From a virus: a stretch of 23,400 nt of DNA. Below the pieces are notes generated by a model. That model had not been told where the DNA came from. It made no database searches and worked only from the letters and a program-made list of their open reading frames with translations. Below are positions 2,819 through 22,436 of this stretch, in pieces (the stretch's first letter is position 1; each line of letters begins with the position of its first letter). Location: positions 1 to 23,400 of IMG/VR virus record IMGVR_UViG_3300044225_005748; one strand, given 5' to 3'. Both the position numbers and the translations under genes were made by a program.

Positions 2819-4288
2819 ATGAGTTCATGCAAATTGGTAATTAAAGACGAGGTAAACGTAAAGTTTCAAGATTTATCTTTAGAACACAGAAAAAAATTAC
2901 ACACCAAATTTAAATTTGAGATACCTTATGCCAGGCATCTACCCGCGGTAAAACTCGGAAGATGGGACGGAAAGGTTTCGTTTTTTGGTCTTGGTGGTAC
3001 AACATATTTGGCACTGGTCGATCAAATTCTTCCAATATTGGAAGATGCAGGCGTGTACGTTGATTTGAAAGATGAACGACACCAGCATAATTTTGAATTC
3101 CAATTGATAGATCAAAATTTTTTATCAAGCATTCAATGGCCTGACAATCATCCGTGTGCAGGACAAGATATTGTTTTGAGAGATTATCAAGTCGAAGTTA
3201 TTAATAAATTTTTAGAAAATCCTCAAAGCATCCAAGAGGTTGCCACAGGAGCAGGTAAAACAATAATCACAGCCGCCTTGTGCAAACTTGTTGAAAATTA
3301 CGGTAGGACGCTTACGATAGTGCCAAACAAATCATTAGTCACACAAACAGAAGACGACTTTGTTGCATGTAATCTCGATGTTGGCGTATATTACGGAGAT
3401 AGAAAAGAACTAGGTAGACAAAATACAATAGCCACCTGGCAATCATTAAACATACTAGAAAAGAAATCAAAAAACGAACATTCGACAGAATTCCTGGAAG
3501 CCATGCAAGACGTCAATACTATCATAGTCGACGAGGTGCATATGGCCAAAGCAGATGTTCTAAAAAGATTACTGACAGGACCTTTTGCACATTGTGGTAT
3601 TCGATGGGGCCTGACCGGTACTGTACCAAAAGCGGACTTTGAATTCTATGGTTTGAAATGCTCCATAGGAGATGTTAAAAACAAGATTCCGGCAAAAGAA
3701 TTACAAGACAAAGGTGTGTTGGCACAGTGTAACGTGAATGTTTTACAGACGCAGGATCATCCAGAATTTAAAAACTACCAGGAAGAATTAAAATGGTTAA
3801 CGACCGACGACACTCGGATGTCATGGATTGCAAATAAAATAGATGACATTTCCAATTCTGGAAACACATTAATACTTGTGGACAGAATATCCGCTGGAGA
3901 AATTCTAGAGAAGAAGATCAAAGATTCTGTATTCATTTCTGGAGCAACCAAAAATCCAGACAGAAAGGAACACTACGATGAAGTATCTACTGCAAAAAAT
4001 AAAGTTATCATTGCCACATATGGAGTTGCCGCTGTTGGCATTAACATTCCTCGTATTTTTAATCTTGTTCTTATAGAACCAGGAAAGTCCTTTGTGAGAG
4101 TGATACAATCCATAGGCAGAGGCATCAGAAAAGCAGAAGACAAGGATAATGTCCAAATTTGGGACATCACTAGTTCTTGTAAGTTTGCAAAAAGACATCT
4201 AGGACAAAGAAAAAAGTTTTACAAAGAGGCAAATTATCCGTATAATATACAAAAGATAGATTATGAAAATCCTTACATTAGAAAATAA
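2819..4288 (+). CDS. uvsW: UvsW-type superfamily 2 DNA helicase
   Basis: A 489-aa SF2 helicase. The N-terminal 110 residues form a small domain with a GRWDGKVSFF stretch typical of UvsW-like proteins. Then come the Q-like LRDYQ (120-124), Walker A ATGAGKT (142-148), DEVH box (238-241), TGT motif III (266-268), and in the second RecA domain VGINIPR and motif VI QSIGRGIRK (430-438). In T4, UvsW unwinds branched DNA and R-loops, drives fork regression and helps switch from origin- to recombination-dependent replication. Length is close to T4 UvsW (about 500 aa). It starts 10 bases after the 1588 gene and its end overlaps the next gene by 26 bases, placing it within a replication run. All core motifs look intact. 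Confidence 0.85.
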   Translation: MSSCKLVIKDEVNVKFQDLSLEHRKKLHTKFKFEIPYARHLPAVKLGRWDGKVSFFGLGGTTYLALVDQILPILEDAGVYVDLKDERHQHNFEFQLIDQNFLSSIQWPDNHPCAGQDIVLRDYQVEVINKFLENPQSIQEVATGAGKTIITAALCKLVENYGRTLTIVPNKSLVTQTEDDFVACNLDVGVYYGDRKELGRQNTIATWQSLNILEKKSKNEHSTEFLEAMQDVNTIIVDEVHMAKADVLKRLLTGPFAHCGIRWGLTGTVPKADFEFYGLKCSIGDVKNKIPAKELQDKGVLAQCNVNVLQTQDHPEFKNYQEELKWLTTDDTRMSWIANKIDDISNSGNTLILVDRISAGEILEKKIKDSVFISGATKNPDRKEHYDEVSTAKNKVIIATYGVAAVGINIPRIFNLVLIEPGKSFVRVIQSIGRGIRKAEDKDNVQIWDITSSCKFAKRHLGQRKKFYKEANYPYNIQKIDYENPYIRK

Positions 4289-6080: not shown

Positions 6081-6291
6081 AAAAATTGACGACATGATCG
6101 AGATAGAACTCGGAGACAGTCTTTTGGTAGTTGGAAGCAATGGCAAATTGAAGAAACTTATTTTGCCTGAATACAAAGACAATATAGAAGAAAGCAAAGG
6201 TACAAAAAAAGTAACAGAGATACTTGAACTTTTTGAACCCAATGCTGGATTGAAAGTTTTTGAACAAATGAACAAAAGGAAAATGAACTAA
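6073..6291 (+). CDS. Small acidic phage protein (72 aa, TTG start)
   Basis: A 72-aa protein that starts with TTG, supported by the AAGGAGG six bases upstream; the start overlaps the zinc-finger gene end by eight bases. It reads as a short beta segment (MIEIELGDSLLVVGSNGKLKK), a charged linker and a C-terminal helix (TEILELFEPNAGLKVFEQM) with a basic tail. It ends exactly at the start of the mini-DnaE gene (TAATG junction), so translation of the two is probably coupled. The DSLLV-GSNGKLKKL start could be an oligomerisation strand. Function unknown; the coupling hints that it may be a partner of the mini-DnaE protein. Confidence 0.6.
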   Translation: MSKKIDDMIEIELGDSLLVVGSNGKLKKLILPEYKDNIEESKGTKKVTEILELFEPNAGLKVFEQMNKRKMN

Positions 6292-6875
6292 TGCCTGATG
6301 TAGATATTGATTTTTTTGATAGGGAGAATGCATTGAAATTATTCAAGCACACAGCGGCCAGTATCATAAAAAATGATCAATCCGAGAAGCACAAGACAGG
6401 TGTTTACTTCCACAGCATTCCTACAGATCCAATAAGCAAAGAAGCCAGCATAGATTATAAAGAGGCGGAAGAAAGAGGATACTTCAAGATAGATTGTTTG
6501 AATGTTAACATCTACAAGGACGTAAAATCAGAACAGGATTTGGTAACATTGATGATACAGGAGCCGGACTGGGACATGTTGAAAGACAAAGTGATAGTTG
6601 ATCAACTTTTCCATCTGAATGGACATTTTGATATTGTGAGCAAACTGGAACCAAAAAACATAGAACAACTAGCGGCTGTATTGGCAATTATTAGACCTGC
6701 CAAGAGACATCTGCTATATAAATTTTGGAAGGAGATTTTAGAAGACGTTTGGAAAAAACCAACAGACGGTTCGTATTTTTTCAAGAAGTCTCACGCAGTT
6801 GCATACGCACATGCGATTGTTGTACAAATGAATCTTATAAAAAATGCACAACTTAAAGAAACACCTACTACATAA
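6291..6875 (+). CDS. Miniature DNA polymerase III alpha (DnaE)-like protein
   Basis: A 194-aa protein that begins exactly at the C-family polymerase catalytic motif: MPDVDIDF, with D3 and D5 in the places of E. coli DnaE D401 and D403. It then keeps, in the right order, an HKTGVYF segment (matching the H-x-GG loop), GYFKIDCLN with an Asp in the place of DnaE D555, an EQLAAVLAIIRPAKR segment matching the ALIRP motif, and FFKKSHAVAYAHA matching the KSHAxxYA motif. Missing are the PHP domain, the first palm half with the RGS motif, most of the fingers, and the OB fold. All three catalytic acids remain, yet it is far too small for a normal polymerase. I recall similar short proteins in marine T4-like phages, without a known role. 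Coupled to the gene before it; overlaps the next by 32 bases. Confidence 0.7.
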   Translation: MPDVDIDFFDRENALKLFKHTAASIIKNDQSEKHKTGVYFHSIPTDPISKEASIDYKEAEERGYFKIDCLNVNIYKDVKSEQDLVTLMIQEPDWDMLKDKVIVDQLFHLNGHFDIVSKLEPKNIEQLAAVLAIIRPAKRHLLYKFWKEILEDVWKKPTDGSYFFKKSHAVAYAHAIVVQMNLIKNAQLKETPTT

Positions 6876-7822: not shown

Positions 7823-7978
7823 ATGTACCATCAAAAAAAGAAAAAGAAATCCACAAAAAAATCTAAAAGAAAATCTTCAAATTATCGTTCAGAGAGTAAC
7901 AGTTATCAGCCGGATAGTCCTTTAACATTACATTATCTTACAACAGGTGCTATACTTCCTGAAAAAAAAGAAGATTAA
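7823..7978 (+). CDS. Tiny lysine-rich protein (51 aa)
   Basis: An ATG-started frame of 51 codons, 16 bases after the methyltransferase stop. The first 18 residues are nearly all basic (MYHQKKKKKSTKKSKRKSS), followed by a polar, Ser/Tyr-rich middle and SPLTLHYLTTGAILPEK. Such a tail looks like a nucleic-acid- or histone-like short protein. It ends tail to tail with the minus-strand gene (four-base overlap), which is the kind of packing expected of real phage genes. It could also be chance, since lysine codons are common in AT-rich DNA. If the methyltransferase is an arginine or lysine modifier, this basic neighbour would be a possible substrate (speculation). Confidence 0.5.
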   Translation: MYHQKKKKKSTKKSKRKSSNYRSESNSYQPDSPLTLHYLTTGAILPEKKED

Positions 7979-8349
7979 GTGGGTCTACGCATTAACTGGA
8001 TTGTTTTCCTTTTAACCCGCTTCTTCGATATGTCGTCCAATTTTACAACAGGTCCATGCATAATTTTTATGTCTTTTGATGCTAAAGTGACCAGTGTGCT
8101 TCTAAAGTAATTAAAGTCCTTCTTGAGGAATATGTTTATTGGTATTTGCCTATTACTTTCCCACCACCAAGTTTGTCCTAACTTGAGAAATGCCATTTTG
8201 TCCTTTGGTAGCAGAATCCTGCCATAATCGTAGAAACTAGTTACATTGGCATCCTGGTTTTGTATTATGCCTACAAACTCCAGATCGCCTTTGGTAATAA
8301 GCGATAAAAAAGGAAAATTTTCCTTTAAGGTTTCAAAAATCTTGTTCAT
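7975..8349 (-). CDS. Conserved T4-like phage protein (124 aa)
   Basis: A 124-aa, basic-tailed protein with the pattern GDLEFVGIIQNQDANVTSFYDYGRI, then a WWWESNRQIPINIFLK core and KDIKIMHGPVVKLDDI, ending in a run of basic residues. (The named stretches are separate pieces of one protein.) I recall this WWWESNRxIPINIFLK signature from marine T4-like phages, with no assigned function. There is no signal peptide. The gene is transcribed away from the late-type gene at 8382 with a 32-bp gap holding the late-promoter-like box, and it converges on the tiny basic gene. A regulatory or DNA-handling role is possible from its basic end. Confidence 0.65.
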   Translation of the reverse strand: MNKIFETLKENFPFLSLITKGDLEFVGIIQNQDANVTSFYDYGRILLPKDKMAFLKLGQTWWWESNRQIPINIFLKKDFNYFRSTLVTLASKDIKIMHGPVVKLDDISKKRVKRKTIQLMRRPT

Positions 8350-8357
8350 GCTCTATC

Positions 8358-8365
8358 TATAAATA
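8358..8365 (+). promoter_or_regulatory. T4-type late promoter (TATAAATA)
   Basis: An exact TATAAATA box, the T4 late-promoter core recognised by the gp55 sigma factor. Transcription would begin about six bases after it, near 8371, leaving an 11-base leader before the ATG at 8382. Its position just ahead of a virion-type gene fits late expression. Confidence 0.65.
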
Positions 8366-8381
8366 CTGTTAAATATGTATT

Positions 8382-9188
8382 ATGCAAACAGTATCAAGGT
8401 ATTTACTATCACAGTTGGTAATCGCCTATGTAAATGGTTATCACGGGAGGAACTCAAAAGTGTACGATAGACGTTTAACACTGCACAGAGGGGTTAATAA
8501 CCCTATAACCTTCACGTTCAAAAACGAGGATCAAAAGGCGCAGGATATTACATCAAAAACATACGAATTTAATTTAATTGATACAGAAAGCAAGAAATCT
8601 GTGCTTACCAAAAATTTGACTGTGTTGGACGATGGATCCACTGTAAGCACAAGAGGTGATGCAAGTTGCACCATAACAGACGGCGATCTACTAGACTTAG
8701 ATGCAAAATTTTATAATTTTTCCGTTAGGGAAATTGGATCAGATGGTAGTAGAACAATTACATATTCTGATACAGGTTACGCGGCCGCTGGCACAGTTGA
8801 ACTGTTGGATACTGCCTATCCACAGTTTGTTGCGAGTACAGAAGTCAACAGTTTCACAGTTACCACAGGCCCACAATCAAAAACAAGTGCGGCGGTTGAT
8901 GCCCAGCCTGGAAAAAACAACAATAAAGCATTACACAGCATTGCTGTTTACACCAAAAATTTTAGTGGAGAGTTACAAGTGCAAGGCACAATGGTAAGCA
9001 CTTCACCGGTGGATGCCGACTATTTTAACATCACTCTGGACGGACAATCATCAGACAAAGTAACCTTGACAAATTCAACAACGGTTACACATTTCAACTT
9101 TACAGGTGTTTACCAAAACGTTAGGTTCTCATGGGGCAACGCTTCTGGTAATACTGGTAAGATTGACAAAATCCTATATAGACAGTAA
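8382..9188 (+). CDS. Probable virion structural protein (BppU-like N-domain, beta-rich C-domain)
   Basis: A 268-aa, Ser/Thr-rich, beta-rich protein. The first half (about residues 35-140) reads like the adaptor domain seen at the start of baseplate and tail proteins: YDRRLTLHRGVNNPITFTF, a DQKAQDITSKTYEFNLID stretch, then alternating strands. The second half (about 155-268) looks like a carbohydrate-binding-like sandwich with SIAVYTKNFSGELQVQG and a closing GKIDKILYRQ strand. It is led by a TATAAATA box, so late expression is likely. It would be part of the tail or capsid surface. The exact position in the virion cannot be told. No signal peptide, no repeats. Confidence 0.65.
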   Translation: MQTVSRYLLSQLVIAYVNGYHGRNSKVYDRRLTLHRGVNNPITFTFKNEDQKAQDITSKTYEFNLIDTESKKSVLTKNLTVLDDGSTVSTRGDASCTITDGDLLDLDAKFYNFSVREIGSDGSRTITYSDTGYAAAGTVELLDTAYPQFVASTEVNSFTVTTGPQSKTSAAVDAQPGKNNNKALHSIAVYTKNFSGELQVQGTMVSTSPVDADYFNITLDGQSSDKVTLTNSTTVTHFNFTGVYQNVRFSWGNASGNTGKIDKILYRQ

Positions 9189-9197
9189 AATAGTTTT

Positions 9198-10211
9198 ATG
9201 AACCTGATCCAGTCGACTATTCTGACGTCCTTGCCTCCTGGGCAAAAAAAGACACCATCCGGATGGATATCCTTCAACGCACCTTGTTGTGTTTACAACG
9301 GAGAGAACGCAGACAAAAGGAAAAGGGGAGGCATAATGTTATCTGCCGATGGCACGTTAAGTTATCATTGTTTCAACTGTGGATTCAAATCCAGTTACGT
9401 TATTGGACGTAAACTCAATTATAAAATGAGACAACTTATGTCATGGTTTGGCATTGCCGATGATGTAATTAAAAAATTAGCCATTGAGGCAATGAGGCAC
9501 GAAGAGTCTGGTGTAACATATGAGAAGAAAAAATTTGTAAACTTCAATAAAAAAACACTTCCAAAGAACGCACAAAAAATTGAAACATGGTTAGAAAAAT
9601 ATCTAGCAAAAGATCTTACTGACAGGCAGTATGAAAAAATAGACCAATTCTTAACATATCTTTCAAGTAGAGGAATTGATCCAAGTTGGTATGATTTCAG
9701 TTACTCACCTGTGAAAGAATTTGATTTTGATCAACGTGTGATCATCCCTTTTTACTGGAAAGGAGACATTGTTGGATTCACGGGTAGGAGTTTTACTGAT
9801 TCGCCAAAAGCAAAATACTTTACAGAAGTACAACCCGGTTACGTTTTCAATATGGACGCACAAGACTGGTCACGGAAGTTTGTAATAGTAACCGAAGGAC
9901 CTTTTGATGCTATTACCATATCTGGGGTCAGCATATTGGGATCAGAGGTAAATGATACACAAAGGGATTTGCTTAATGGCCTTAACAAAAAAGTCATAGT
10001 AGTTCCGGACAGAGATGCTCCAGGACAAAAATTAGTAGACCAGGCATTGGAATTTGGATGGAGCGTTGCTTTTCCAGAATGGGATAAAACGGTTGGCGAT
10101 GTGGCAGATGCTGTGTTAAAATATGGCAGGCTGTTTACTTTACAATCAATACTAAAAACAACAGAGTCAAGTAAATTGAAAATAGATTTAAAGAGAAAGA
10201 TGTATGGCTGA
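9198..10211 (+). CDS. DNA primase (T4 gp61 / DnaG-type)
   Basis: A 337-aa primase. The zinc-binding end has CC at 30-31 and HCFNCG at 57-62, so one pair of ligands is clear while the usual second-ligand His of CHC2 primases is not obvious. The catalytic Toprim fold shows the acidic motif TEGPFDAITI with E233 and D237, and PDRDAPGQK with DRD at 271-273, the two metal-binding patches of Toprim primases. It would make short RNA primers for lagging-strand synthesis. The gene starts 9 bases after the virion-type gene and its last eight bases overlap the replicative helicase, its natural partner in the T4 primosome. Length matches gp61 (342 aa in T4) well. Confidence 0.85.
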   Translation: MNLIQSTILTSLPPGQKKTPSGWISFNAPCCVYNGENADKRKRGGIMLSADGTLSYHCFNCGFKSSYVIGRKLNYKMRQLMSWFGIADDVIKKLAIEAMRHEESGVTYEKKKFVNFNKKTLPKNAQKIETWLEKYLAKDLTDRQYEKIDQFLTYLSSRGIDPSWYDFSYSPVKEFDFDQRVIIPFYWKGDIVGFTGRSFTDSPKAKYFTEVQPGYVFNMDAQDWSRKFVIVTEGPFDAITISGVSILGSEVNDTQRDLLNGLNKKVIVVPDRDAPGQKLVDQALEFGWSVAFPEWDKTVGDVADAVLKYGRLFTLQSILKTTESSKLKIDLKRKMYG

Positions 10212-11646
10212 TTATTCGTTTGATGTACAAAAATTATATCTAGAAATGTTCTTGGCAGATGCCGAATCGTTTGCTAGGGCACAGAATATTTTTGATCCTG
10301 TGCATTTTGAAAGAAAACTACAACCAATAGCCAAGTTCGTAAAAGAATATTCGGATGAATACAAAGTGATGCCCGATGTTGATCAAGTAAATGCTAAACA
10401 CGAAATCAAACTGAAATCAGCAAAGGATCTCGATCCAAGTCATTTCACTTGGTTGCTTGATGAGTTTGAAAACTTTTCAAGACACAAAGCAATGGAAAAA
10501 GCGATTTTAGAGTCAGCGGATCTACTTGAAAAGGGCGATTACAATCCAGTAGAAGATAAAATTAAACAAGCAGTTAGCATTAGTCTTACAAAAGACTTAG
10601 GTACAGATTACTTCGAGGATCCAAGAGGTAGGTTGGAGGCTTTAAAAAACTCCAACGGGCAGGTCAGCACAGGGTGGCCCAATGTTGATAAGAAGTTATA
10701 TGGTGGGTTCAACAAAGGTGAGTTAAACATATTTGCAGGTGGATCAGGAGCAGGCAAAAGTTTATTCCTACAGAATCTAGCAGTCAACTGGGCAACCGCT
10801 GGCTTGAACTGTGCGTACATCTCGTTTGAGTTGAGTGAACAGTTAGTGGCAATGAGATTGGATTCGATGTTAGCAAACATACCAACTAGGCAAGTAATGA
10901 AAGATATCGAGAACGTTGAAATGAAAGTCAAAATGATGTCAAAGAAATCAGGTGGTATACAGATAAAATATCTGCCAAGTGGTAGCAACGTGAACGATCT
11001 CAAAGCGTACATAAAAGAATTGCAATTAAAACAAAAGAAAAATATTGATTGTATACTGATAGATTATTTGGATCTCATGATGCCAAAATCTAAACGTGTG
11101 TCTCCCGCGGATCTTTTTATAAAGGACAAATATGTTTCTGAAGAATTAAGAAATCTTGCAACAGAATCAAACATTATAATGGCCACGGCATCGCAACTTA
11201 ACAGGGCATCAGTCGAAGAGATCGAGTTTGATCATTCTCACATTGCTGGAGGATTATCGAAAGTGCAAACAGCAGATAACGTTGTTGGTATTTTTACATC
11301 CAGGGCAATGAAAGAGCGTGGCAGATATCAAATACAATTTATGAAGACAAGATCAAGTTCTGGTGTTGGACAAAAAATTGATTTGGAATTTGACATAGAC
11401 ACATTAAGAATAAGAGACCTAGCAGAGGATCCAGAGTACCAACAGTTTAAAAAACAAACTTCAACAATATATGATAACCTCAAACAAAAAAGCAAAATTA
11501 CACCAAGCGGTGCACCAACAGATGCAAGACCCGACAAGGATATAGATCCAAGAAAGGGCGATTCGGTAGGCAAGGTCAAAGCGAATGTTGAAGGAAACAA
11601 ATTAAGAGAATTGCTGAACGAACTTCATTCAGATGAAGAACAATAG
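10204..11646 (+). CDS. Replicative DNA helicase (T4 gp41 / DnaB-type)
   Basis: A 480-aa hexameric helicase. The N-terminal 130 residues form a helical collar, followed by the RecA-type motor: Walker A GGSGAGKS (179-186), GLNCAYISFE with the catalytic Glu near 209, Walker B CILIDYLD (283-290), a TASQLNRAS sensor segment (328-336), and KTRSSSGVG (381-389) carrying the arginine finger. It unwinds the lagging strand ahead of the fork and loads the primase. It is longer by a charged, flexible 60-residue tail rich in Asp, Lys and Pro. It overlaps the primase gene at its start and the SGNH gene at its end. Confidence 0.85.
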   Translation: MADYSFDVQKLYLEMFLADAESFARAQNIFDPVHFERKLQPIAKFVKEYSDEYKVMPDVDQVNAKHEIKLKSAKDLDPSHFTWLLDEFENFSRHKAMEKAILESADLLEKGDYNPVEDKIKQAVSISLTKDLGTDYFEDPRGRLEALKNSNGQVSTGWPNVDKKLYGGFNKGELNIFAGGSGAGKSLFLQNLAVNWATAGLNCAYISFELSEQLVAMRLDSMLANIPTRQVMKDIENVEMKVKMMSKKSGGIQIKYLPSGSNVNDLKAYIKELQLKQKKNIDCILIDYLDLMMPKSKRVSPADLFIKDKYVSEELRNLATESNIIMATASQLNRASVEEIEFDHSHIAGGLSKVQTADNVVGIFTSRAMKERGRYQIQFMKTRSSSGVGQKIDLEFDIDTLRIRDLAEDPEYQQFKKQTSTIYDNLKQKSKITPSGAPTDARPDKDIDPRKGDSVGKVKANVEGNKLRELLNELHSDEEQ

Positions 11647-12283: not shown

Positions 12284-12434
12284 GCGTAAATTTTTTCAAC
12301 AGCGAAAGCAGTAATTTTGCGTAAGATTACTTGTTGACCTCTCATAAAGCACAATTACAACTGCCTATTTTTGTTTGTCTGTTTGTCGCGAGTAATAAAT
12401 AAAATTGCTCAAGGCAATACAGGCAAACATAGGC
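12284..12434. other. Gap with candidate late-type promoter and a TGCGTAA repeat
   Basis: The 151-base gap to the DnaE-type gene holds two TTGCGTAAG/TTTGCGTAAG copies flanking an AT-rich stretch, a lone TTGACC with no good partner box, and AATAAATA at 12394-12401, one base from the T4 late box TATAAATA. If the latter is active, the transcript would begin near 12407, which favours the ATG at 12435 over the TTG at 12405. No gene fits here. Confidence 0.35.
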
Positions 12435-14132
12435 ATGAAAAAAGACAAACAACTAAACGACATCACAAGGCTGTACGATAGATTCATTAGGCAATGTCCA
12501 GGCACAGAAGAATACACGCATAGGCTAGCCGAGGAAACTCAACTCATCCTTCAACTACGATTCGTAGACTACTTCATCCAAATATGTGACATAATGGCAA
12601 TCACCAGGGACATACCACACATGACCCGAGGTTCTGCCGGATCGTCCCTTGTCTGCTATCTGCTTGGCATAACAGATGTAGATCCTGTGGAGTGGGGAAT
12701 ACCCGTGGCAAGATTTCTCAATCCCAACAGAGACGACCTACCTGACGTTGATATTGATTTCCCCCATTATCGTCAGGCGGAGGTCATGCAGAGAATATTT
12801 GATCGCTGGCCCGGAAAGTCTGCCCGAATATCAAACTACGTGCTCTATCAAGATAAGTCGGCAAGGCGTGAAGCGGCAAAGCGATTGGGTGCCAAGGGTA
12901 ATCTCCCTCGCAGGTTTACATATGAATCGGTTGGTGTTGATCCAATCGAAGCAAGGCGCATAGAGAACAAACTTAAAGGCAAAAAAAGATGCATATCAAA
13001 ACACTGCGGAGGAATACTGATGTTTCAAAGACAATTACCCAAAAGCCTATTCACGGCTGAAAATCAAATACTGCTAGACAAGAACGAAGTGGAGGACCTC
13101 GAACACCTCAAGGTGGACATACTGGCCAACCGTGGTCTGTCCCAACTGTTGGAGATAGATCCCACCACGCGATTGGCTGACTATCCGGAAGAGGACCAGG
13201 CCACATCTGACCTCCTGTGCAGAGGAGATGTATTGGGAGTAACGCAGGCAGAGAGTCCGGCAATGAGGAGACTGTTCAGGGCCATACAACCAAAGAGCAT
13301 GAAGGACTGTGTGTTCGCCACAGCACTGATAAGGCCAGTGGCCATATCCGGACGAAAGAAAGCAACCATGTTTCATGACTGGTCACAGGAACGCATGAGC
13401 GACACGATAGTGTACGAGGACGACGCCATAGACAGAATATCCGAGGTACTGAACATCGACAAGTATGAGGCCGACATGTACAGGAGAGCGTTCGCAAAAA
13501 AGAACGAAGAAAAGATAATGGAATTTATAACAAGGCTGGGCAATGATCCACGCAAGGATGAGATCATAACAATGTTACAGTCGTTGTCGGGATTTGGTCT
13601 GTGTAGGGCACACGCGGTGAACCTCGGCAGACTGATATGGGCGTTGGCATACCAGAAGGTACACAACAAAGAGAAATTTTGGCAATCGTGCCTGAAGCAC
13701 TGTCAGGGATCATACAAGCGATGGGTGTACAGGACAGAGGCCAAGCGTGTGGGCATAGAAGTGGTCACACCAAGCAAGTCCGACCATTGGGACACACCAG
13801 AGTTCCAATATCGCAAGTATGGGTGGTGGAGTTCGAGAGATTTCATGCCGGGCATGTACGTGAAAGAGTTATACCTCGACAAGATCGAGTTCGCGGGCAT
13901 GATAGCAAACGGACGGGTGTTCCGTGGCGACAAAGGCAAGTATGTGACATTCCTCACACTAGGAGTTGGTAATGGACAATACATAGATGTCACCATAAAG
14001 AGAGCATTCGCATATAGAGATCATGATGTGGTGTGGGGTCAAGGCACCGTACGGCACAGTAACAATTCCGAATACCTCGAGTGCTACGATGTAAAAGGAT
14101 TTAGGCTAGAAAAATACTTGCATCACAACTAA
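12435..14132 (+). CDS. DnaE-type (C-family) DNA polymerase without PHP domain
   Basis: A 565-aa protein covering the polymerase body of DNA polymerase III alpha. In order: YTHRLAEETQLILQLRFVDYF (start of palm, in two parts), TRGSAGSSLVCYLLGITDVDP, the catalytic PDVDIDF with D104 and D106 (E. coli D401/D403), SKHCGGILMF, LKVDILANRG with D228 (E. coli D555), an SPAMRRLFRAIQP helix, ALIRP, SGFGLCRAHAVN (matching the KSHAxxYA motif), and a C-terminal OB fold around IEFAGMIANGRVFR. What is missing is the 270-residue N-terminal PHP domain. A TTG at 12405 would add ten residues; a stop lies just upstream. Clearly richer in GC than the genes to its left. T4-like phages normally use a B-family enzyme, so this is unusual. 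Confidence 0.8.
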   Translation: MKKDKQLNDITRLYDRFIRQCPGTEEYTHRLAEETQLILQLRFVDYFIQICDIMAITRDIPHMTRGSAGSSLVCYLLGITDVDPVEWGIPVARFLNPNRDDLPDVDIDFPHYRQAEVMQRIFDRWPGKSARISNYVLYQDKSARREAAKRLGAKGNLPRRFTYESVGVDPIEARRIENKLKGKKRCISKHCGGILMFQRQLPKSLFTAENQILLDKNEVEDLEHLKVDILANRGLSQLLEIDPTTRLADYPEEDQATSDLLCRGDVLGVTQAESPAMRRLFRAIQPKSMKDCVFATALIRPVAISGRKKATMFHDWSQERMSDTIVYEDDAIDRISEVLNIDKYEADMYRRAFAKKNEEKIMEFITRLGNDPRKDEIITMLQSLSGFGLCRAHAVNLGRLIWALAYQKVHNKEKFWQSCLKHCQGSYKRWVYRTEAKRVGIEVVTPSKSDHWDTPEFQYRKYGWWSSRDFMPGMYVKELYLDKIEFAGMIANGRVFRGDKGKYVTFLTLGVGNGQYIDVTIKRAFAYRDHDVVWGQGTVRHSNNSEYLECYDVKGFRLEKYLHHN

Positions 14133-14146
14133 TTCTGTTGTATACT
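14118..14146 (+). promoter_or_regulatory. sigma70-type promoter before the TylF-like gene
   Basis: TTGCAT (14118-14123) and TATACT (14141-14146) with an ideal 17-bp spacer, the first box lying in the end of the polymerase gene. Transcription would begin near 14153, on or next to the ATG there, so the mRNA would be leaderless. Confidence 0.5.
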
Positions 14147-14152
14147 CAACAC

Positions 14153-14908
14153 ATGCCAACGTTAGAATACACAATGAATCCAAAATATGTTCACGCCGCG
14201 GTGACGGTGTATGAACATCTAAGGCTGACATTGAAAACACACGCGGAAGACAAATACCATAATGATTCCTTGATGTCTGACATGGTATACTCACCATTGA
14301 CTGTGGTATATCGAAATCCAGATGCATCAGAACCAAGAAAGTTTGATGTGGTAGAGACAAGACGCAAATGGATGCATGACACAGCAAAGGATCCATGGAT
14401 AGAAGGACACTGGGCAGAGTTCGGTGTTCGTGAGGGACAAACCATTGGATACCTATTAGAGGCAAAACCCGATCAGGAAATACACGCATTCGACAGTTGG
14501 GAAGGACTACCAGAGGAATGGCATGATGGAGGTAACAGATACCAAAAGGGAGACATGACCGTGGACATACCAAATTTTCCTCCCAATGTGAAATGCCACA
14601 AAGGATGGTTCAAGGATACTATAGATACATGGCTACAAGAACACAAAGGACCAATGGCATATGTACACATAGACAGCGACCTTTACTCGTCAGCAAAAAC
14701 TGTGCTGAACAAACTCAACGACAGGATAGTGCCGGAAACAATCTTGGTGTTCGACGAAATAGCCAACTTCCGAGGTTCAGGAAAAATGTCCAACTGGTAC
14801 AAACACGAATGGTTGGCACTGAACGAATGGTTGAGAGAGTTCGATCGGGGAGTTGCACCCATAAGAAGAACCTGCATGTATCAGGCCGCTTTCAGAGTCA
14901 CCAAATAA
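14153..14908 (+). CDS. TylF/macrocin-O-methyltransferase-like protein
   Basis: A 251-aa methyltransferase of the TylF family. Marker segments: GHWAEFGVREGQTIGYLLE (SAM-binding loop), IHAFDSWEGLPEEW, and the metal-binding-like YVHIDSDLYSSAKTVLN, then VFDEIANF. TylF-type enzymes methylate a sugar or other small hydroxyl compound with a metal ion; several family members act on glycans. The ATG at 14153 is chosen because a good promoter ends seven bases before it and an upstream TTG (14138) lies inside the promoter; an ATG at 14174 is also possible. It is followed 14 bases later by a radical SAM gene, so the two probably share a transcript. Substrate unknown. Confidence 0.75.
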   Translation: MPTLEYTMNPKYVHAAVTVYEHLRLTLKTHAEDKYHNDSLMSDMVYSPLTVVYRNPDASEPRKFDVVETRRKWMHDTAKDPWIEGHWAEFGVREGQTIGYLLEAKPDQEIHAFDSWEGLPEEWHDGGNRYQKGDMTVDIPNFPPNVKCHKGWFKDTIDTWLQEHKGPMAYVHIDSDLYSSAKTVLNKLNDRIVPETILVFDEIANFRGSGKMSNWYKHEWLALNEWLREFDRGVAPIRRTCMYQAAFRVTK

Positions 14909-14922
14909 CATTAAATATTAGC

Positions 14923-15936
14923 ATGATAGATCAAACACTGCCAACACCAGTGGAATTGGCGTTCGAACCAGTCAATCTCTGCAACGCAAAATGTTTCTGT
15001 TGTCCTTACACATTCTTGCAAGAGGACAAAGAATACAGAGGACAAAAGATGTCAGGGCCACAGATCGAAGAACTGATAGGACAGTTCGCGGCAGGACTTG
15101 AAAAACACAAAGTTCCAAAAATGAAGGCAACCATACAACCATGGAGGTACTCTGACCCTTTGGTTTGCAAAGACCTGGAATTGGTTTTTGAACTTGCCGA
15201 AAAGCACGATCTAAAAGTCATCATCACGACAAACGCTGTAAGTTTCTCAGAGAAAAAATGCGACATAATGAAAAGATACATAAAAAATCTTGCTAACATT
15301 AACATCTCGATAATTGGTTACAACGAAAAAGAGATAAGAGAATACATGGACCTCGACTGGAATGTGACACAGGCAAGATTACGCATGGTACAAAAACTTT
15401 ACCCCGAACTGAGTCAAAAAATGGTGATAGGAGTAAAAAATAAAATACAACACCCGACAAGGAAACAATACGGTCCTGTGATAGAAAAACTACAGGCACT
15501 GACTCTCGGTAGAGTAAAAAAGAAAGTCGGATGGTTGGAGAATAGATTGACCTACAACAAATTCGAAGACGATGGTGTGAGAATGACCATCAACGAAGAT
15601 AAATTCGTGCAAGGCTGTGCAATGGTTCATGGAAAGATCCTGCGTAGGCTCGAAGTAATGGTGGACGGCACTGCTGTATTGTGTTGCGATGATGCCACCA
15701 AGCAGACAAACTTTGGAAATGTTTTTGAAATAGGAATAGAAGGTGTATGGGATAGATTAAGAGAATATCACAACATGATTTACAGTAAGCAGTATTCGGA
15801 CAGGAAAAAAAATATGATATGTAACACGTGTAGCAGAGCAAAATTTAAATGGCGAGACGAGCACAGAGCGGAGTTCATGTCAAAGACACAGGAAATAAAT
15901 TCACAGTACCTACCAAAAACTATAAAAGTTTCCTAG
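14923..15936 (+). CDS. Radical SAM protein with C-terminal SPASM-like domain
   Basis: A 337-aa protein. The radical SAM cluster site is CNAKCFCC (C20, C24, C27; C-x3-C-x2-C), followed by the usual strand run with TTNAVSFS and GYNEKEIREY. The C-terminal part holds an SPASM-like auxiliary cluster: GCAMVHGK (C232), VDGTAVLCCDDA (C254/C255), GNVFEIGIEGVWD, and CNTC (C300, C303). Such proteins use a 5'-deoxyadenosyl radical to change peptides or sugars; the substrate is not evident. The frame is open far upstream (to 14593) but that part overlaps the TylF-like gene in another frame; ATG 14923 puts the cysteine cluster at a normal distance. Its tail overlaps the next (minus-strand) gene by 17 bases. 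Confidence 0.8.
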   Translation: MIDQTLPTPVELAFEPVNLCNAKCFCCPYTFLQEDKEYRGQKMSGPQIEELIGQFAAGLEKHKVPKMKATIQPWRYSDPLVCKDLELVFELAEKHDLKVIITTNAVSFSEKKCDIMKRYIKNLANINISIIGYNEKEIREYMDLDWNVTQARLRMVQKLYPELSQKMVIGVKNKIQHPTRKQYGPVIEKLQALTLGRVKKKVGWLENRLTYNKFEDDGVRMTINEDKFVQGCAMVHGKILRRLEVMVDGTAVLCCDDATKQTNFGNVFEIGIEGVWDRLREYHNMIYSKQYSDRKKNMICNTCSRAKFKWRDEHRAEFMSKTQEINSQYLPKTIKVS

Positions 15937-16708
15937 CATTTACAAACTCATAGAGAAGTTGTCCCCACATGTGATGACCTTGCTGATTAGGGTGTCCATC
16001 ATTTTCACTTTTAGTCCATCCGTTTTTTGCCACGTATTCAAACTGACTCTGCACATAATCCTCGTTTGACACTTGAACTTTGTGGTCTGCACTGCTTCTG
16101 TTTTTGATCTGCATCTGCACATTGTCTTTCACATGTGATGAAGCCTCAAAATTAAAAAATCGATTTGTGTCTATCTGCTTTTTGAAAAGTGCCAGGTCCG
16201 GACGTTGTTTTCCGTTTACATCATTCTCTGGTAAGTCGTTGCTGAGTGCCCAATAGAACACGTAAGGAATCTTGTGATGCTGTAAGAACATCTGCAACAT
16301 TAATATTTCCTCATATAGTTTGACTGTGCTGTCTAACTCAAGATCAAAGTCTTTGTCTCTCATAAAAAAATCATGTTGCCAAAGTTGCCAAGTGCCCCAT
16401 TGGTAGGAAAACTTTAACAGTTCTCCTTTCAATCCACCTTGTTTCTCTTTTGGAGTTTTCATTGTGCTGGTGTAGTCATATCGAAAAGCAGTGGTCCAAC
16501 CAACAGACACGAAGGTGTCTTTCATTCTTTCGGGATTCTGATAAAACCAGTTCATGGTTGTGTTGACTATACGGCGATTGCCTCTTCCGCCCTTTGCTAA
16601 ATTTATAGTAGGGCCAATGCCTAATTTTTCTCCAAGATATTGATGACAACTGTTGTAAGTCTTCTTTGTACTAAAACTGCAACCATTACTGAGGTGATGA
16701 GTTATCAT
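15920..16708 (-). CDS. SGNH-hydrolase-like protein (second of three)
   Basis: A 262-aa protein starting with the nucleophile block LSNGCSFSTKK (S11), then NLAKGGRGNRRIVN (Gly/Asn blocks) and a terminal NDGHPNQQGHHMW with D237 and H239 as the likely catalytic pair. The middle, VSVGWTTAFRYDY and FYWALSNDLPEND, fits the family but no close relative is recognised. There is no signal peptide. It overlaps by four bases (ATGA) with the glycosyltransferase gene that precedes it on the minus strand, so the two are translated in step; a sugar acyl group is the natural substrate guess. Could also be inactive. Confidence 0.65.
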   Translation of the reverse strand: MITHHLSNGCSFSTKKTYNSCHQYLGEKLGIGPTINLAKGGRGNRRIVNTTMNWFYQNPERMKDTFVSVGWTTAFRYDYTSTMKTPKEKQGGLKGELLKFSYQWGTWQLWQHDFFMRDKDFDLELDSTVKLYEEILMLQMFLQHHKIPYVFYWALSNDLPENDVNGKQRPDLALFKKQIDTNRFFNFEASSHVKDNVQMQIKNRSSADHKVQVSNEDYVQSQFEYVAKNGWTKSENDGHPNQQGHHMWGQLLYEFVNARKLL

Positions 16709-17619
16709 ATGCTTTTCCTAATGTGTTGCCAACATGTTCCGTCGGCTAGTTCTTTCTTACTGTACTGACACATACTTATTTTTTTGATCCAATCAAGTTT
16801 GTCATCCATATAGGGCGACTCAATATCTGAAAGAGATATCGAACTGACTTCGTAGGCCATGTTACCTTTGTCACAGGCTATATTTGGTATGCCTGCCAGC
16901 ACGGCATCGACGGCACTGCCGCTACTGAATGTTACCACGCACCATGCCCTGTTAAAGTCATCCTCCAACGGTCTAAGATTATTCGGTAACATATTTTGCA
17001 CCACTTCAACATTGTCAAATGTCTTTTGAATCACTTTGTATCTTCTTTCGTCCTCGTGCCGCGGCAACGGATGTGGTCTGATGACTATTCGCCTGTCGGT
17101 ATGTTTTTTTAGTTCGATTATGGTTTCTTCACACCATTCAAAAATGTCCTTGCCCCTCAGGCTGGCATCTCCGGGGTTCTGCATACATATCACAACATCA
17201 TCTCCTCGCTGTTTCCACGAGACGTTTGGATCTACTCCACATTCAGCAAAAACTTTTTTATAACGTTCGTGGTCAATATGTTCGAATCCCCATTTTGCTT
17301 CATCCCACAAGAAGCCATTGACTCCGGCTCTCACGTGCTCGTGATCTGTTATCCTTGCGTTTCTTCCTATCACTGGAGTCTCGAACTGAACGAACTTTTT
17401 AAAACGTGTGCTGATACTGTTTTTAATCTTATGATGCAGTGACGTCCTGTATGTTTTGAAACTTCCGTAAATGACCGCTGTGTCATATCTCCTAGGGTCC
17501 GGCATGCGGTCAACTAAGATAGATTCATCTCCGCACTTGCGTATTCCTTCATGAAAGTCTTTTAACTTCAATTTATAATGGTGCCTATGGGCAGATGGTA
17601 ATGCTATTGCAACTTTCAT
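16705..17619 (-). CDS. Capsule/surface polysaccharide glycosyltransferase-like protein
   Basis: A 304-aa protein with a glycosyltransferase-B-like layout. N-terminal half: MKVAIALPSAHRHHYKLKL, YDTAVIYGSF. C-terminal half: VVICMQNPGDASLRG, RRIVIRPHPLPRHED, then WCVVTFSSGSAVDAVLAGIP, the donor-site loop, and a tail W-x-x-I-S-x-CQYSKKEL-x-DGT-x-W. The FSSGSA...GIP and the aromatic tail match the partial gene at 1-357. It would move a sugar onto a surface glycan precursor. The gene starts 56 bases from a divergent gene and runs into the SGNH gene with an ATGA overlap. Family fairly sure; donor and acceptor unknown. Confidence 0.7.
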   Translation of the reverse strand: MKVAIALPSAHRHHYKLKLKDFHEGIRKCGDESILVDRMPDPRRYDTAVIYGSFKTYRTSLHHKIKNSISTRFKKFVQFETPVIGRNARITDHEHVRAGVNGFLWDEAKWGFEHIDHERYKKVFAECGVDPNVSWKQRGDDVVICMQNPGDASLRGKDIFEWCEETIIELKKHTDRRIVIRPHPLPRHEDERRYKVIQKTFDNVEVVQNMLPNNLRPLEDDFNRAWCVVTFSSGSAVDAVLAGIPNIACDKGNMAYEVSSISLSDIESPYMDDKLDWIKKISMCQYSKKELADGTCWQHIRKSI

Positions 17620-17675
17620 TTTTTATATTTAAGTGTATGCAGAATGGATAATTATATTTGCATGAGGCGTTTAAA

Positions 17676-17873
17676 ATGGCAATACATCACGATTACAAAA
17701 ACAGACGAGGTGAGAAGAAACTACGTAAGCAACACAAGAGAGACATGCGTAGGTTAAAGAATGCACCTTCGAAAAATACAACACAGCAAGACCAAAAAAA
17801 TGACACATATGTGGCATCTCCTGATGAGGTGATCACTCTAGACCTCATCACTAATCCAAACAAGATCAAATGA
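17676..17873 (+). CDS. Small basic protein (65 aa) coupled to a radical SAM gene
   Basis: A 65-aa protein with a strongly basic, His-containing start (MAIHHDYKNRRGEKKLRKQH), a second basic stretch KRDMRRLKNAPSKN, and an acidic-neutral end VASPDEVITLDLITN. ATG 17676 has a GAGG eight bases upstream; a TTG at 17658 is also in frame but has less support. Its stop overlaps the start of the radical SAM gene (ATGA), so both are probably made together. No cysteines and no obvious leader-core boundary, so if it is a peptide substrate it would be an unusual one. A nucleic-acid-binding small protein is the plainer reading. Confidence 0.55.
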   Translation: MAIHHDYKNRRGEKKLRKQHKRDMRRLKNAPSKNTTQQDQKNDTYVASPDEVITLDLITNPNKIK

Positions 17874-18901
17874 ATATAGACGAACAGAAGTTTGCCTGGT
17901 ATGGAATAGATACCAAAAAGGATCTAAACCTCAGTGCTATTTGTAACAAACCGTTTAGTACAGTGCTCGTTGATAAGTTAGGAGATGTCTATCTGTGTGA
18001 TTGCCAGGCATGGTTACCAGCACCCGTTGGCAATCTACACGAACATAGTTTGGAACAAATCTTTGAGAACGAGAACGCAGAAGAGATACGAGAAACAATG
18101 TTGGATGGGTCATACAAATACTGTAACACAAAGCAGTGTATCTTTCTCAACAACGAATTTATACAGAGACAAGCAACACTTGTACCACCTGTTGAACTAG
18201 TGACCATTAGACTGGGCATAGATGAAAGTTGCAATCTTAGATGTCCTAGTTGTAGAACAGAAATGATATACGACACCGACAGGGACAGTCTCAAAAAGAA
18301 ATTTAGAATAGCAGACAAGGTAATAGATTATTTAAACCATGATGACAACGGACTCAACATCATAATTGGAAGTGATGGTGATCCTTTCGCAAGTCTGGTT
18401 TATAGATATCTAATGAAACACGCACCAAATAAAGGCAGTGTAAGATACAGCATACAAACTAATGGCCTGTTGATAAAAAAAATGATGTTGAGGTTTTCGA
18501 ATGTGTTTAACAATCTACAGATGCTACAAGTCAGCATCGATGGTGCAACAAAAGACACATACGAGAAAATACGTCTCGGCGGTAAATGGGAGAAGATAAA
18601 AGAAAATATGGAACACATATCAAAGGTCAAGGACCAGTACCATTTCCTGTGGCACTTCGACTTTGTGGTTCAACGAGATAACTTCCGGGAGATTCCGATG
18701 CTTTTGGAATGGGCAGACCGGTTAGGCGTTGACGCTGTGAACCTTAAACCCATAGAGGATTGGAACACGTACACTGATATCAAACAATACCAGGTTTGGA
18801 AAAAAGATCATCCCGACTATGACGAGTACAATTCAATAATGAACAGTGTCAAGGATCACCCCAAGATAGCACACAGAAATTTCCATTGGACACTTACCTA
18901 A
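17870..18901 (+). CDS. Radical SAM protein with an N-terminal twitch/SPASM-like domain
   Basis: A 343-aa protein in which the auxiliary-cluster-like module comes first: CNKPFSTVLVDKLGDVYLC (C25, C43, C45), GNLHEHSLEQIF, and C85/C90; the radical SAM site CNLRCPSC (C121, C125, C128) follows. In most family members the SPASM or twitch part is at the C-terminus, so this order is permuted. After the cluster come IIIGSDGDPF, YSIQTNGLLI, LQVSIDGATKDTYEKIR and a DFVVQRDN segment, a normal radical SAM barrel. The end is short and has no second cysteine set. Coupled to the 65-aa protein upstream and convergent with an SGNH gene (eight-base overlap). Substrate unknown; a peptide or sugar is plausible. 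Confidence 0.75.
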   Translation: MNIDEQKFAWYGIDTKKDLNLSAICNKPFSTVLVDKLGDVYLCDCQAWLPAPVGNLHEHSLEQIFENENAEEIRETMLDGSYKYCNTKQCIFLNNEFIQRQATLVPPVELVTIRLGIDESCNLRCPSCRTEMIYDTDRDSLKKKFRIADKVIDYLNHDDNGLNIIIGSDGDPFASLVYRYLMKHAPNKGSVRYSIQTNGLLIKKMMLRFSNVFNNLQMLQVSIDGATKDTYEKIRLGGKWEKIKENMEHISKVKDQYHFLWHFDFVVQRDNFREIPMLLEWADRLGVDAVNLKPIEDWNTYTDIKQYQVWKKDHPDYDEYNSIMNSVKDHPKIAHRNFHWTLT

Positions 18902-19601
18902 GTTTAGTATTGTACTTCCTTAGGAAAAGTTCTGCGAATCTTTCATGATGTTTTATACCGTAGTGTTTGCCATCACTGGCTAGGTCTGGTGTTTGGATGA
19001 TGTCTGTAATCTTTTCAAATTGTTTATCATAGATAGGCCAGCAGTCAGCGAGAGAATGGTCTCTCATTGTGTTTGGCGGCATGTCTATGTTATAAACTTG
19101 TTCTGCAAAGCAATGAAATGTTTTGGCACCGATATGTTCGGCAAATTTCTCAACCATGAATACATTGTGCAGTAGGTTGTGCTTGTCGTTGATTTCTGTG
19201 TTTTGTTTCAGCATGTGGTGGGCACCTGTTATGTTAATGCTTTGATCTTCGTACAGTTCTCTCCGGCTCCACGCGGGCCAACAACATACAATCACTTTGG
19301 GGAACAATACCTTTTCGCTGGCGTAAAGTATCCTTGTCATTAGATCAGCCGAGGCACCCGGTTGCGCCATGTTCCACCATCTAAGGTTGTCGGTGGCACT
19401 TTCTTTAGCGACTATACTACTCCATGTCTGATCTGCTTCCAGTCCTTCTCCGAAAGTGTGACTGCAACCAAGCACCACTGTGTTCTTCTTACCGTTTGGC
19501 AATGGTGTCCATTCCGGGCATCTATAGCCGTGGCTGTTGACCCCGCTATGGTTGTTTGTGAACTTTGGTATTTGATTGTCTGAATAGAATCCGTACTGCA
19601 T
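18894..19601 (-). CDS. SGNH-hydrolase-like protein (third of three)
   Basis: A 235-aa protein with nucleophile block VVLGCSHTFGEG (S47), a QPGASADLMTRIL segment supplying Gly and a nearby Asn, and a terminal SDGKHYG with D210 and H213 as likely catalytic residues. The frame can be extended to a GTG at 19634, but that would run into the tRNA gene (its 3' end), so ATG 19601 is chosen; the tRNA lies 20 bases upstream and points the same way. It is the third SGNH-type protein here. Relatives at 11633 and 15920 differ strongly, so this is not a recent triplication. Substrate unknown. Confidence 0.65.
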   Translation of the reverse strand: MQYGFYSDNQIPKFTNNHSGVNSHGYRCPEWTPLPNGKKNTVVLGCSHTFGEGLEADQTWSSIVAKESATDNLRWWNMAQPGASADLMTRILYASEKVLFPKVIVCCWPAWSRRELYEDQSINITGAHHMLKQNTEINDKHNLLHNVFMVEKFAEHIGAKTFHCFAEQVYNIDMPPNTMRDHSLADCWPIYDKQFEKITDIIQTPDLASDGKHYGIKHHERFAELFLRKYNTKLR

Positions 19602-19620
19602 GGAATATTTACTTACCCTA

Positions 19621-19696
19621 TGGTGCCGCTTCACGGATTCGAACCGCGGACCTACTGATTACAAATCAGTTGCTCTACCAACTGAGCTAAAGCGGC
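19621..19696 (-). tRNA. tRNA-Thr (anticodon UGU)
   Basis: A 76-base tRNA on the minus strand with a perfect 7-bp acceptor stem (GCCGCTT with AAGCGGC), normal D arm (TAGCTCAGTTGGTAGAGCA), a 5-bp anticodon stem ACTGA/TCAGT around loop TTTGTAA, T arm with GGTTCGAATCC, and an encoded CCA end (19621-19623). The anticodon TGT maps to ACA at 19661-19663 on the plus strand. It would read ACA (and other ACN) threonine codons; phage often carry tRNAs that suit their own AT-rich codon use. It shares direction with the SGNH gene 20 bases away. Confidence 0.95.
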
Positions 19697-21460: not shown

Positions 21461-21574
21461 ATGTTTTTAACTATCGCATTCATAGTAGGATTCATCGCAG
21501 GTTGGTGGGTAAATGAAAAAGTCGAAAATCTCGGCCAAAAAATAAATCCACTCAACTGGATCAAGAAGAAGTAG
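21461..21574 (+). CDS. Tiny membrane protein (37 aa)
   Basis: A 37-aa frame with one membrane helix ([16 protein letters not shown]), followed by a short polar tail [20 protein letters not shown] with three terminal lysines. The layout (short N-terminal helix, basic end inside) matches a single-pass inner-membrane protein. It starts four bases after the 21193 gene stop and ends overlapping the tail of clpP by 14 bases. Too short for the usual gene finders. Function unknown. Confidence 0.6.
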
Positions 21575-22160
21575 TATCTTCTCTCTTGTCTACAATAGTA
21601 TCTGCCAGGCCATAATCAACGGCCTGCTTCGCGGTCATGAAGTTGTCTCTTTCCATGTCCGTCCTCAACTTATCAACAGGCTGTGCTGTGTGCTTGTGGT
21701 ACACCTCGATCAACTCGTCCTTCCATCTCAACAGTTCCTTGGCCTGTATCTCCACGTCCGATGCCTGTCCCGACGCTCCGCCCAACGGTTGGTGTATCAT
21801 GTGTCTCGCATGTGGCAACATCATCCGCTTGCCTTTGGTGCCGGCGGAGGCCAGCAGTGAACCCATGCTACATGCCTGTCCCATCACCATCGTCCTGATG
21901 TCACACTGTATATACTGCATGGTGTCGTATATGGCCATGCCCGCGGTGACCAGGCCGCCCGGGGAATTGATGTAGAGCGTGATGTCCTTGGTGCTGTCCT
22001 GTGACTCCAGGAACAGCAGTTGACTGCACAGCAGGCTCGCGGAGTGCTCCGATATCGGGCCTTCCAGCATGATGATCCTGTCCTTGAGCAGTCTCGAGAA
22101 TATGTCGTAACTTCTCTCGCCTTTGCTTGTCTGTTCTATCACTATGGGTGTCAGTGGCAT
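21561..22160 (-). CDS. clpP: ClpP serine protease
   Basis: A 199-aa ClpP. From ATG 22160 it reads [19 protein letters not shown], aligning with the mature start of bacterial ClpP, so the frame upstream to a GTG at 22214 is probably promoter rather than coding. Catalytic triad present: Ser in GQACSMG, His in MIHQPLGG, Asp in ERDNFM, at positions equal to S97, H122 and D171 of mature E. coli ClpP. Odd: the residue next to the nucleophilic Ser is Cys instead of the near-invariant Ala. ClpP forms a barrel that degrades proteins fed by Clp ATPases; a phage version may redirect the host complex. The region is GC-rich and looks acquired. No ClpX/ClpA gene is in the window. Confidence 0.9.
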
Positions 22161-22168
22161 ATGTGTGT

Positions 22169-22198
22169 ATTGTAACACAGGGCCGACGGGTGTGTCAA
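22169..22198 (-). promoter_or_regulatory. sigma70-type promoter for clpP (P2)
   Basis: On the minus strand TTGACA (22193-22198), 18-bp spacer, TACAAT (22169-22174). Transcription would begin about 22162, two bases before ATG 22160, so the mRNA is nearly leaderless. This placement is the chief reason for preferring the shorter ClpP start. Confidence 0.55.
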
Positions 22199-22436
22199 CC
22201 ATGTCGCTACACACTCTTGGGAGGGCCTTGCTGTGAACTCACCCCCAACTTTCGAATAGCAGATCACATCTAATTGTTGCAAGGTTTAAATGTGAAATTT
22301 ACTCGAACCACCTCCTTCTAAACCAACCCACTCGGGCGCCTAAAAGAATTTAGTGTGCGTTACACCTCTGCCGAAGCGTTGTTCCGCCACCAAGGCCTAG
22401 AATTAATTAGGTTCTAGGTTGTGTGTAGTTGTTCTC
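22199..22436 (-). ncRNA. Unexplained leader or non-coding RNA upstream of clpP
   Basis: The stretch between the promoter P1 and clpP has no supported gene. Transcribed from P1, it begins with a perfect stem CCTAGAA/TTCTAGG (22396-22402 and 22412-22418), then a G-rich part, a lone extended Shine-Dalgarno-like AGAAGGAGGTG with no start codon at working distance, a T-loop-like GGTTCGAGT, and near its end TTGGG...CCCAA, which can form another stem. It may be a long clpP leader or a separate RNA. I looked for tmRNA, 6S, SRP and RNase P signatures and found none. Confidence 0.4.

Follow-up and report, generated by a model that had tools for sequence, protein, structure and literature searches.

We analyzed a 23,400-nt stretch of viral DNA (IMG/VR record IMGVR_UViG_3300044225_005748), hereafter called the window, and confirmed that it encodes a C-family (DnaE-type) DNA polymerase, pol565, with a palm, thumb, fingers, OB fold, and all catalytic residues. 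The enzyme lacks both the PHP domain and the HhH/clamp-binding region. On balance, we favor the view that pol565 is a catalytically competent, minimized C-family polymerase that serves as a second, special-purpose enzyme beside the B-family gp43 of Rak2-related marine jumbo myophages. The gene, its active-site motifs, and its C-terminal domain are as follows:

12435-14132, + strand: pol565, a PHP-less C-family DNA polymerase of 565 amino acids (Pfam, PHROG, PDB, HHalign, and an AF2 model examined with Foldseek and VIA)
12627-12635, + strand: RGS motif of the palm, residues 65-67
12744-12752, + strand: catalytic D104 and D106 (PDVDIDF), located by alignment
13116-13118, + strand: catalytic D228 (KVDIL)
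13857-14105, + strand: C-terminal OB fold, about residues 475-557 (DSSP strands in the model; VIA)

The open reading frame (ORF) ends at 14132 and could start at 12405 (TTG) or 12435 (ATG). We assigned the start to the ATG, because a conserved noncoding leader reaches 12435 and the longer frame is absent in most relatives. Pfam detected DNA_pol3_alpha (8e-41) and DNA_pol3_finger (PF17657; 5e-16) and no further domain, pol565 matched PHROG 405 (5e-67), and a PDB sequence search returned DnaE proteins. Using HHalign, we aligned residues 24-447, comprising the palm, thumb, and fingers, to residues 318-815 of E. coli DnaE, where the alignment ends. We built the structure model from 43 relatives; its confidence is modest (mean pLDDT 63.5). 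The palm-thumb-fingers portion of the model matches all DnaE and PolC structures, the best match being E. coli DnaE 286-813 (Z 24.7, 333 residues aligned; VIA), and residues 480-558 of the model resemble the OB folds of SSB and PriB (Z about 8).

RGS65-67, D104, D106, K226, D228, R300, and H393 are the same in every one of the 115 aligned rows, in which a few contigs are counted twice. From the alignment, we take D104 and D106 to be the equivalents of E. coli D401 and D403, and D228 corresponds to E. coli D555. A preliminary description of the window had proposed a full DnaE palm, fingers, and OB fold with all motifs and no PHP domain, and this was borne out by Pfam, HHalign, VIA, and the invariant residues. 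It had also raised the possibility that the catalytic aspartates are lost in relatives; all three are kept in every row.

Pol565 thus resembles bacterial DnaE/Pol III alpha (E. coli DnaE; T. aquaticus, 3E0D) in its palm, thumb, fingers, and C-terminal OB fold, its three catalytic aspartates, its RGS motif, and its SHA-type finger motif. It differs in having no PHP domain, no HhH/clamp-binding region, and no tau-binding C-terminal domain, and in its length (565 residues versus about 1160); identity is 25-30%. Pfam did not find PF02811 (PHP) in pol565, and the pol565 family has 55-65 residues ahead of the RGS motif, compared to 305-421 in the full-length DnaE proteins that we measured from phages, plasmids, and bacteria. 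Only about 28 residues separate the end of the fingers (447) from the start of the OB fold (475), indicating that the HhH/clamp-binding region is absent. The architecture first described was therefore correct as to PHP and must be widened to include loss of the (HhH)2/beta-clamp-binding region. A clamp-binding motif, which that description suggested looking for, was not evident: a crude motif scan of the family revealed no convincing conserved candidate.

We rejected a truncated ORF, frameshift, or assembly artifact as the source of the missing PHP domain, because the length and start of pol565 are constant in more than 100 contigs with differing upstream sequence and because PHP-coding DNA is absent nearby. 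A search for a stand-alone PHP domain that might act in trans was negative across 17 records, among them the complete genomes of LR756508, Phosso, and GAP32, while the control was positive in 14 of 14 genomes. DnaQ is present in GAP32 and LR756508; none was seen in the lineage fragments searched.

The PHP domain is described as strictly conserved among C-family polymerases and needed for stability, and mutations in this domain destabilize E. coli Pol III (PMC3666897), which weighs against a competent PHP-less enzyme. The conserved core of the family is defined as PHP, Pol3, and (HhH)2 (PMC3919608). In the literature searched, which included few subscription papers, we saw no natural C-family polymerase described as lacking PHP. 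The DnaE-like polymerases of Streptomyces phage Lika, E. coli phage ECML-117, Mycobacterium phage Sebata, and Gordonia phage Zany are, like pol565, C-family and phage-borne, but in these proteins the RGS motif is preceded by 305-421 residues, a PHP-sized N terminus. A 574-residue protein of the uncultured 484-kb phage LR756508 shares the architecture without PHP (38% identity across 98% of the length) and falls in the same clade (100/100), although its gene has a different neighborhood and the record is unannotated. Two PHROG profiles, phrog_11165 and phrog_21652, may already contain such proteins, unremarked. In the marine jumbo phage cluster PGC_A, a gene with the DnaE-type domain PF07733 occurs in 51.9% of genomes (PMC9123017), and this gene probably includes the pol565 family. 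The accessible part of that survey gives a domain match only and does not describe the absence of PHP, the status of a second polymerase, or a promoter.

Several genes to the left of pol565 helped us to place the phage:

2819-4288, + strand: UvsW-like helicase (phrog_16, 6e-77; syntenic and 49%-54% identical in GAP32, PBECO4, and Phosso)
6291-6875, + strand: phrog_11778, 194 amino acids, apparent C-terminal half of a miniature split DnaE (DxD, third Asp, and fingers motifs)
8382-9188, + strand: virion structural protein homolog (phrog_14467, 5e-18; late-promoter motif at 8359-8365)
9198-10211, + strand: DNA primase, gp61/DnaG-like (phrog_47, 1e-42; syntenic)
10204-11646, + strand: DnaB-like replicative helicase, gp41-like (phrog_19, 8e-74; DnaB_C)

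The order of these genes (UvsW, four small conserved ORFs, phrog_11778, virion-type protein, primase, DnaB) is that of GAP32, PBECO4, Phosso, and Atu_ph07. By synteny, the phage is a Rak2/GAP32/Atu_ph07-type jumbo myophage. The earlier label "T4-like" fits its T4-type replication genes and not the phage itself, as the same synteny led us to reject an ordinary T4 phage.

T4-like phages use a B-family polymerase, and the C-family gene had been put forward as either a replacement or a second polymerase. A B-family polymerase is present in GAP32, PBECO4, Phosso, and all eight of the largest Rak2-like IMG/VR contigs (228-462 kb), and Atu_ph07 encodes one of gp43 type (PMC6102473). The complete 484-kb LR756508 carries its PHP-less pol565 homolog and a B-family polymerase together. 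Since complete relatives encode a B-family gp43, a second polymerase is the better reading. In LR756508.1, the gp43-type polymerase (259363-267288; L115:4364-12288) is in two ORFs, of 1017 and 621 amino acids, separated by about 3 kb with other small ORFs.

Looking for gp43, as the preliminary description had proposed, thus located it in complete relatives; it was not found on pol565 contigs of the lineage, fragments of up to 108 kb, and none of 80 gp43 loci with 10-kb flanks was linked to pol565. Its absence from these contigs is uninformative, because they are fragments and because in Phosso, the nearest of the complete relatives tested, over 160 kb separate gp43 from the UvsW-DnaB module. 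The window itself represents a 23.4-kb fragment, and its gp43 would lie outside the fragments covered. Pol565 could instead be the main replicase of the lineage, a nonorthologous replacement for gp43, as might be expected from the lack of a B-family polymerase on every pol565-bearing contig of the lineage, the position of pol565 directly after primase and DnaB in most contigs, and its fully conserved active site. We consider this unlikely. The contigs in question are the fragments just described, LR756508 has both enzymes, and sister contigs without pol565 are awkward for a sole replicase; moreover, pol565 has no HhH/clamp-binding region and a late-type promoter. We therefore continue to favor a second polymerase, which would coexist with gp43 in the lineage of the window.

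At least 500 relatives of pol565 were present in viral contigs among the matches listed, most of them marine. Across 2080 contig pairs, mean amino acid identity was 0.81 while identity at four-fold sites was 0.455, indicating strong purifying selection. In some close relatives, pol565 is missing at this position and is not elsewhere on those contigs, and thus it is not essential everywhere. On the dnaB tree, the presence of pol565 requires 5 changes, compared to 19 with shuffled labels, and the contigs lacking it are nested within the clade of the window, indicating local loss.

The GC content of pol565 (0.479) does differ from that of the genes to its left (about 0.37-0.40), as first described, but the separate acquisition read from this difference did not withstand comparison with dnaB. 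Pairwise divergences of pol565 and dnaB rise in step (Spearman 0.93). In 63 of 65 contigs, pol565 also exceeds dnaB in GC at four-fold sites, and the two values are correlated (r 0.85). On these data, we rejected the recent horizontal acquisition read from GC; they show that pol565 and dnaB have been co-inherited over a long time. The missing domains and GC difference would also fit a bacterial dnaE that was acquired horizontally and is now decaying. This is very improbable given a length and start that are constant across more than 100 relatives, the invariant active site, the strong purifying selection, the conserved promoter and leader, and the co-divergence with dnaB.

The region to the right of pol565 (14138-19634) is a variable cassette whose gene content and order differ among relatives. 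It contains a TylF-type methyltransferase gene, two radical-SAM/SPASM genes, and SGNH-like and glycosyltransferase-like genes. A ClpP protease gene (21561-22214, - strand) stands out by its GC3 of 0.68, much higher than elsewhere in the window, and has a relative with 80% identity on L063.

To place the protein in the C-family, as had been suggested, we built a small tree. The pol565 family formed one clade (100/100) on a long branch that fell outside DnaE1 and outside both of the DnaE2 proteins sampled, which were only two. This placement bears on whether pol565 is a translesion or mutagenesis polymerase, functionally like DnaE2/ImuC. The best NCBIfam match of pol565 is the error-prone model PRK05672 (8e-52, in a single stretch), which narrowly outscores the DnaE models, and the proofreading and clamp domains are absent, as might suit such an enzyme. 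We nonetheless regard this role as improbable, since pol565 has its own long branch in the core tree, the best NCBIfam model for the LR756508 homolog is DnaE1, imuA and imuB are absent near pol565, and DnaE2 retains the PHP domain.

For a close bacterial source, one scan of genome contigs with strict patterns returned only a distant partial DnaE on an archaeal MAG contig. A contig binned as Pacearchaeota (L116; DAKN01000015.1) carries genes for a PHP-containing DnaE and a clamp-loader-like protein, and perhaps for a clamp-like one; it appears to be a phage contig placed in an archaeal bin. We left "Listeria phage LM 4-11-1" and "Staphylococcus phage SA 1306 Kay" out of the phage evidence because both records are unverified and bacterial-looking. 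In the unverified "phage" records OR847208.1 and OR844993.1, DnaE is like bacterial chromosomal DnaE, probably reflecting host contamination.

Two elements lie immediately upstream of pol565:

12395-12401, + strand: ATAAATA, a T4-type late-promoter-like motif
12405-12434, + strand: conserved untranslated leader, present once in the window, carrying three AGGCA repeats at a spacing of about 10 nt

The window contains three copies of ATAAATA, the T4 late-promoter core, which is below chance expectation; two of these copies directly precede the virion-type gene and pol565. Among distinct upstream regions, the exact word was found before pol565 in 47 of 72 (5.1 expected) and before the virion gene in 30 of 31. 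It was absent before dnaB (0/44), primase (0/38), and the mini-DnaE gene (0/28; 0/110 in total), and the late motif never precedes dnaB, primase, or helicase in relatives. The motif is a 7-mer, and the 25 pol565 regions without the exact word include some that read GATAATTA. It is kept even in lineages whose polymerases are 68%-73% identical, and was not found before the pol565 homolog of LR756508. A TATAAATA-like late motif has been reported in the Rak2-like phage CBB (PMC5259590). Because ATAAATA precedes pol565 and the virion gene and never dnaB, primase, or helicase, a late function is suggested for pol565, which may be expressed late in infection and separately from the adjoining replication genes.

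The leader with AGGCA repeats occurs only before pol565 and is absent wherever pol565 is absent. The exact 35-base leader was present in seven viral contigs, with pol565 directly after it in all seven. It is kept across diverged relatives and could be a translational control element. We set aside a hairpin in the leader, as its 4-5 bp stem is not conserved in all relatives.

How might such an enzyme be used? The PHP domain (scaffold, proofreading site, and dock for epsilon) and the HhH/clamp region are gone, and pol565 would thus be expected to show low processivity and have no proofreading of its own. The retained OB fold may engage single-stranded DNA. With a late-type promoter, pol565 would act late in infection, together with whatever partners it may have, perhaps filling gaps or repairing replicated or recombining DNA before packaging. 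Alternatively, it might be packaged in the virion. If so, it could act at the start of infection, for example by filling in gaps or termini of the injected genome. The T4-type late motif common to pol565 and the virion gene is consistent with this idea, but late timing is also compatible with repair before packaging and pol565 adjoins no structural cluster beyond the one virion-type gene; we therefore consider action at the start of infection rather unlikely. A second, special-purpose polymerase that works late on replicated DNA remains our preferred reading.

The window holds another C-family gene, phrog_11778, which the preliminary account of a C-family polymerase missed along with the late promoter and the HhH/clamp loss. 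D3, D5, K66, D68, R135, and H168 are identical in 42 of 42 relatives. In a model of this protein (pLDDT 88.6), the best 14 structural matches were all PolC/DnaE (Z 5.2-8.8, up to 190 of 194 residues), and the best unrelated fold reached Z 3.4 (VIA). An N-terminal half of about 175 amino acids is encoded elsewhere, near the clamp loader gp44, in complete or cultured Rak2-like phages. Using HHalign, the N-half ends at E. coli DnaE residue 393 and the C-half begins at 396. Among the best 40 phage records for the C-half, 39 were also listed for the N-half; no N-half was seen in fragments of the lineage of the window. Together, the two halves resemble a miniature C-family polymerase encoded in two pieces. 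The CBB paper comments on the N-half alone, as a "truncated" DNA polymerase III alpha (CBB_328, 172 aa; PMC5259590). CBB_328 and phrog_11778 are remnants of C-family enzymes from phages of the same type, and the window has the phrog_11778 half, but together they constitute the split polymerase, while pol565 is a separate, continuous enzyme. A small gene (7975-8349, - strand) is always beside the C-half and is conserved as far as GAP32 and PBECO4.

We tentatively propose that the C-family polymerase has been reduced twice, independently, in these jumbo phages, a joint claim that we rate below an even chance. One product would be pol565, late and possibly virion-borne; the other would be an enzyme of ~370 residues, split into two subunits whose genes lie tens to hundreds of kilobases apart. 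Both would exist beside the B-family replicase.

Hundreds of marine phage contigs therefore carry a natural C-family enzyme that has no PHP domain or HhH/clamp region and an intact active site. Pol565 provides a direct natural test of the role of the PHP domain and a compact C-family enzyme suited to biochemical work. It also hints at an additional DNA polymerase used late in infection by jumbo phages. If the proposal of two reductions is true, these phages would break the rule that C-family polymerases all need PHP and would encode the smallest C-family enzymes known.
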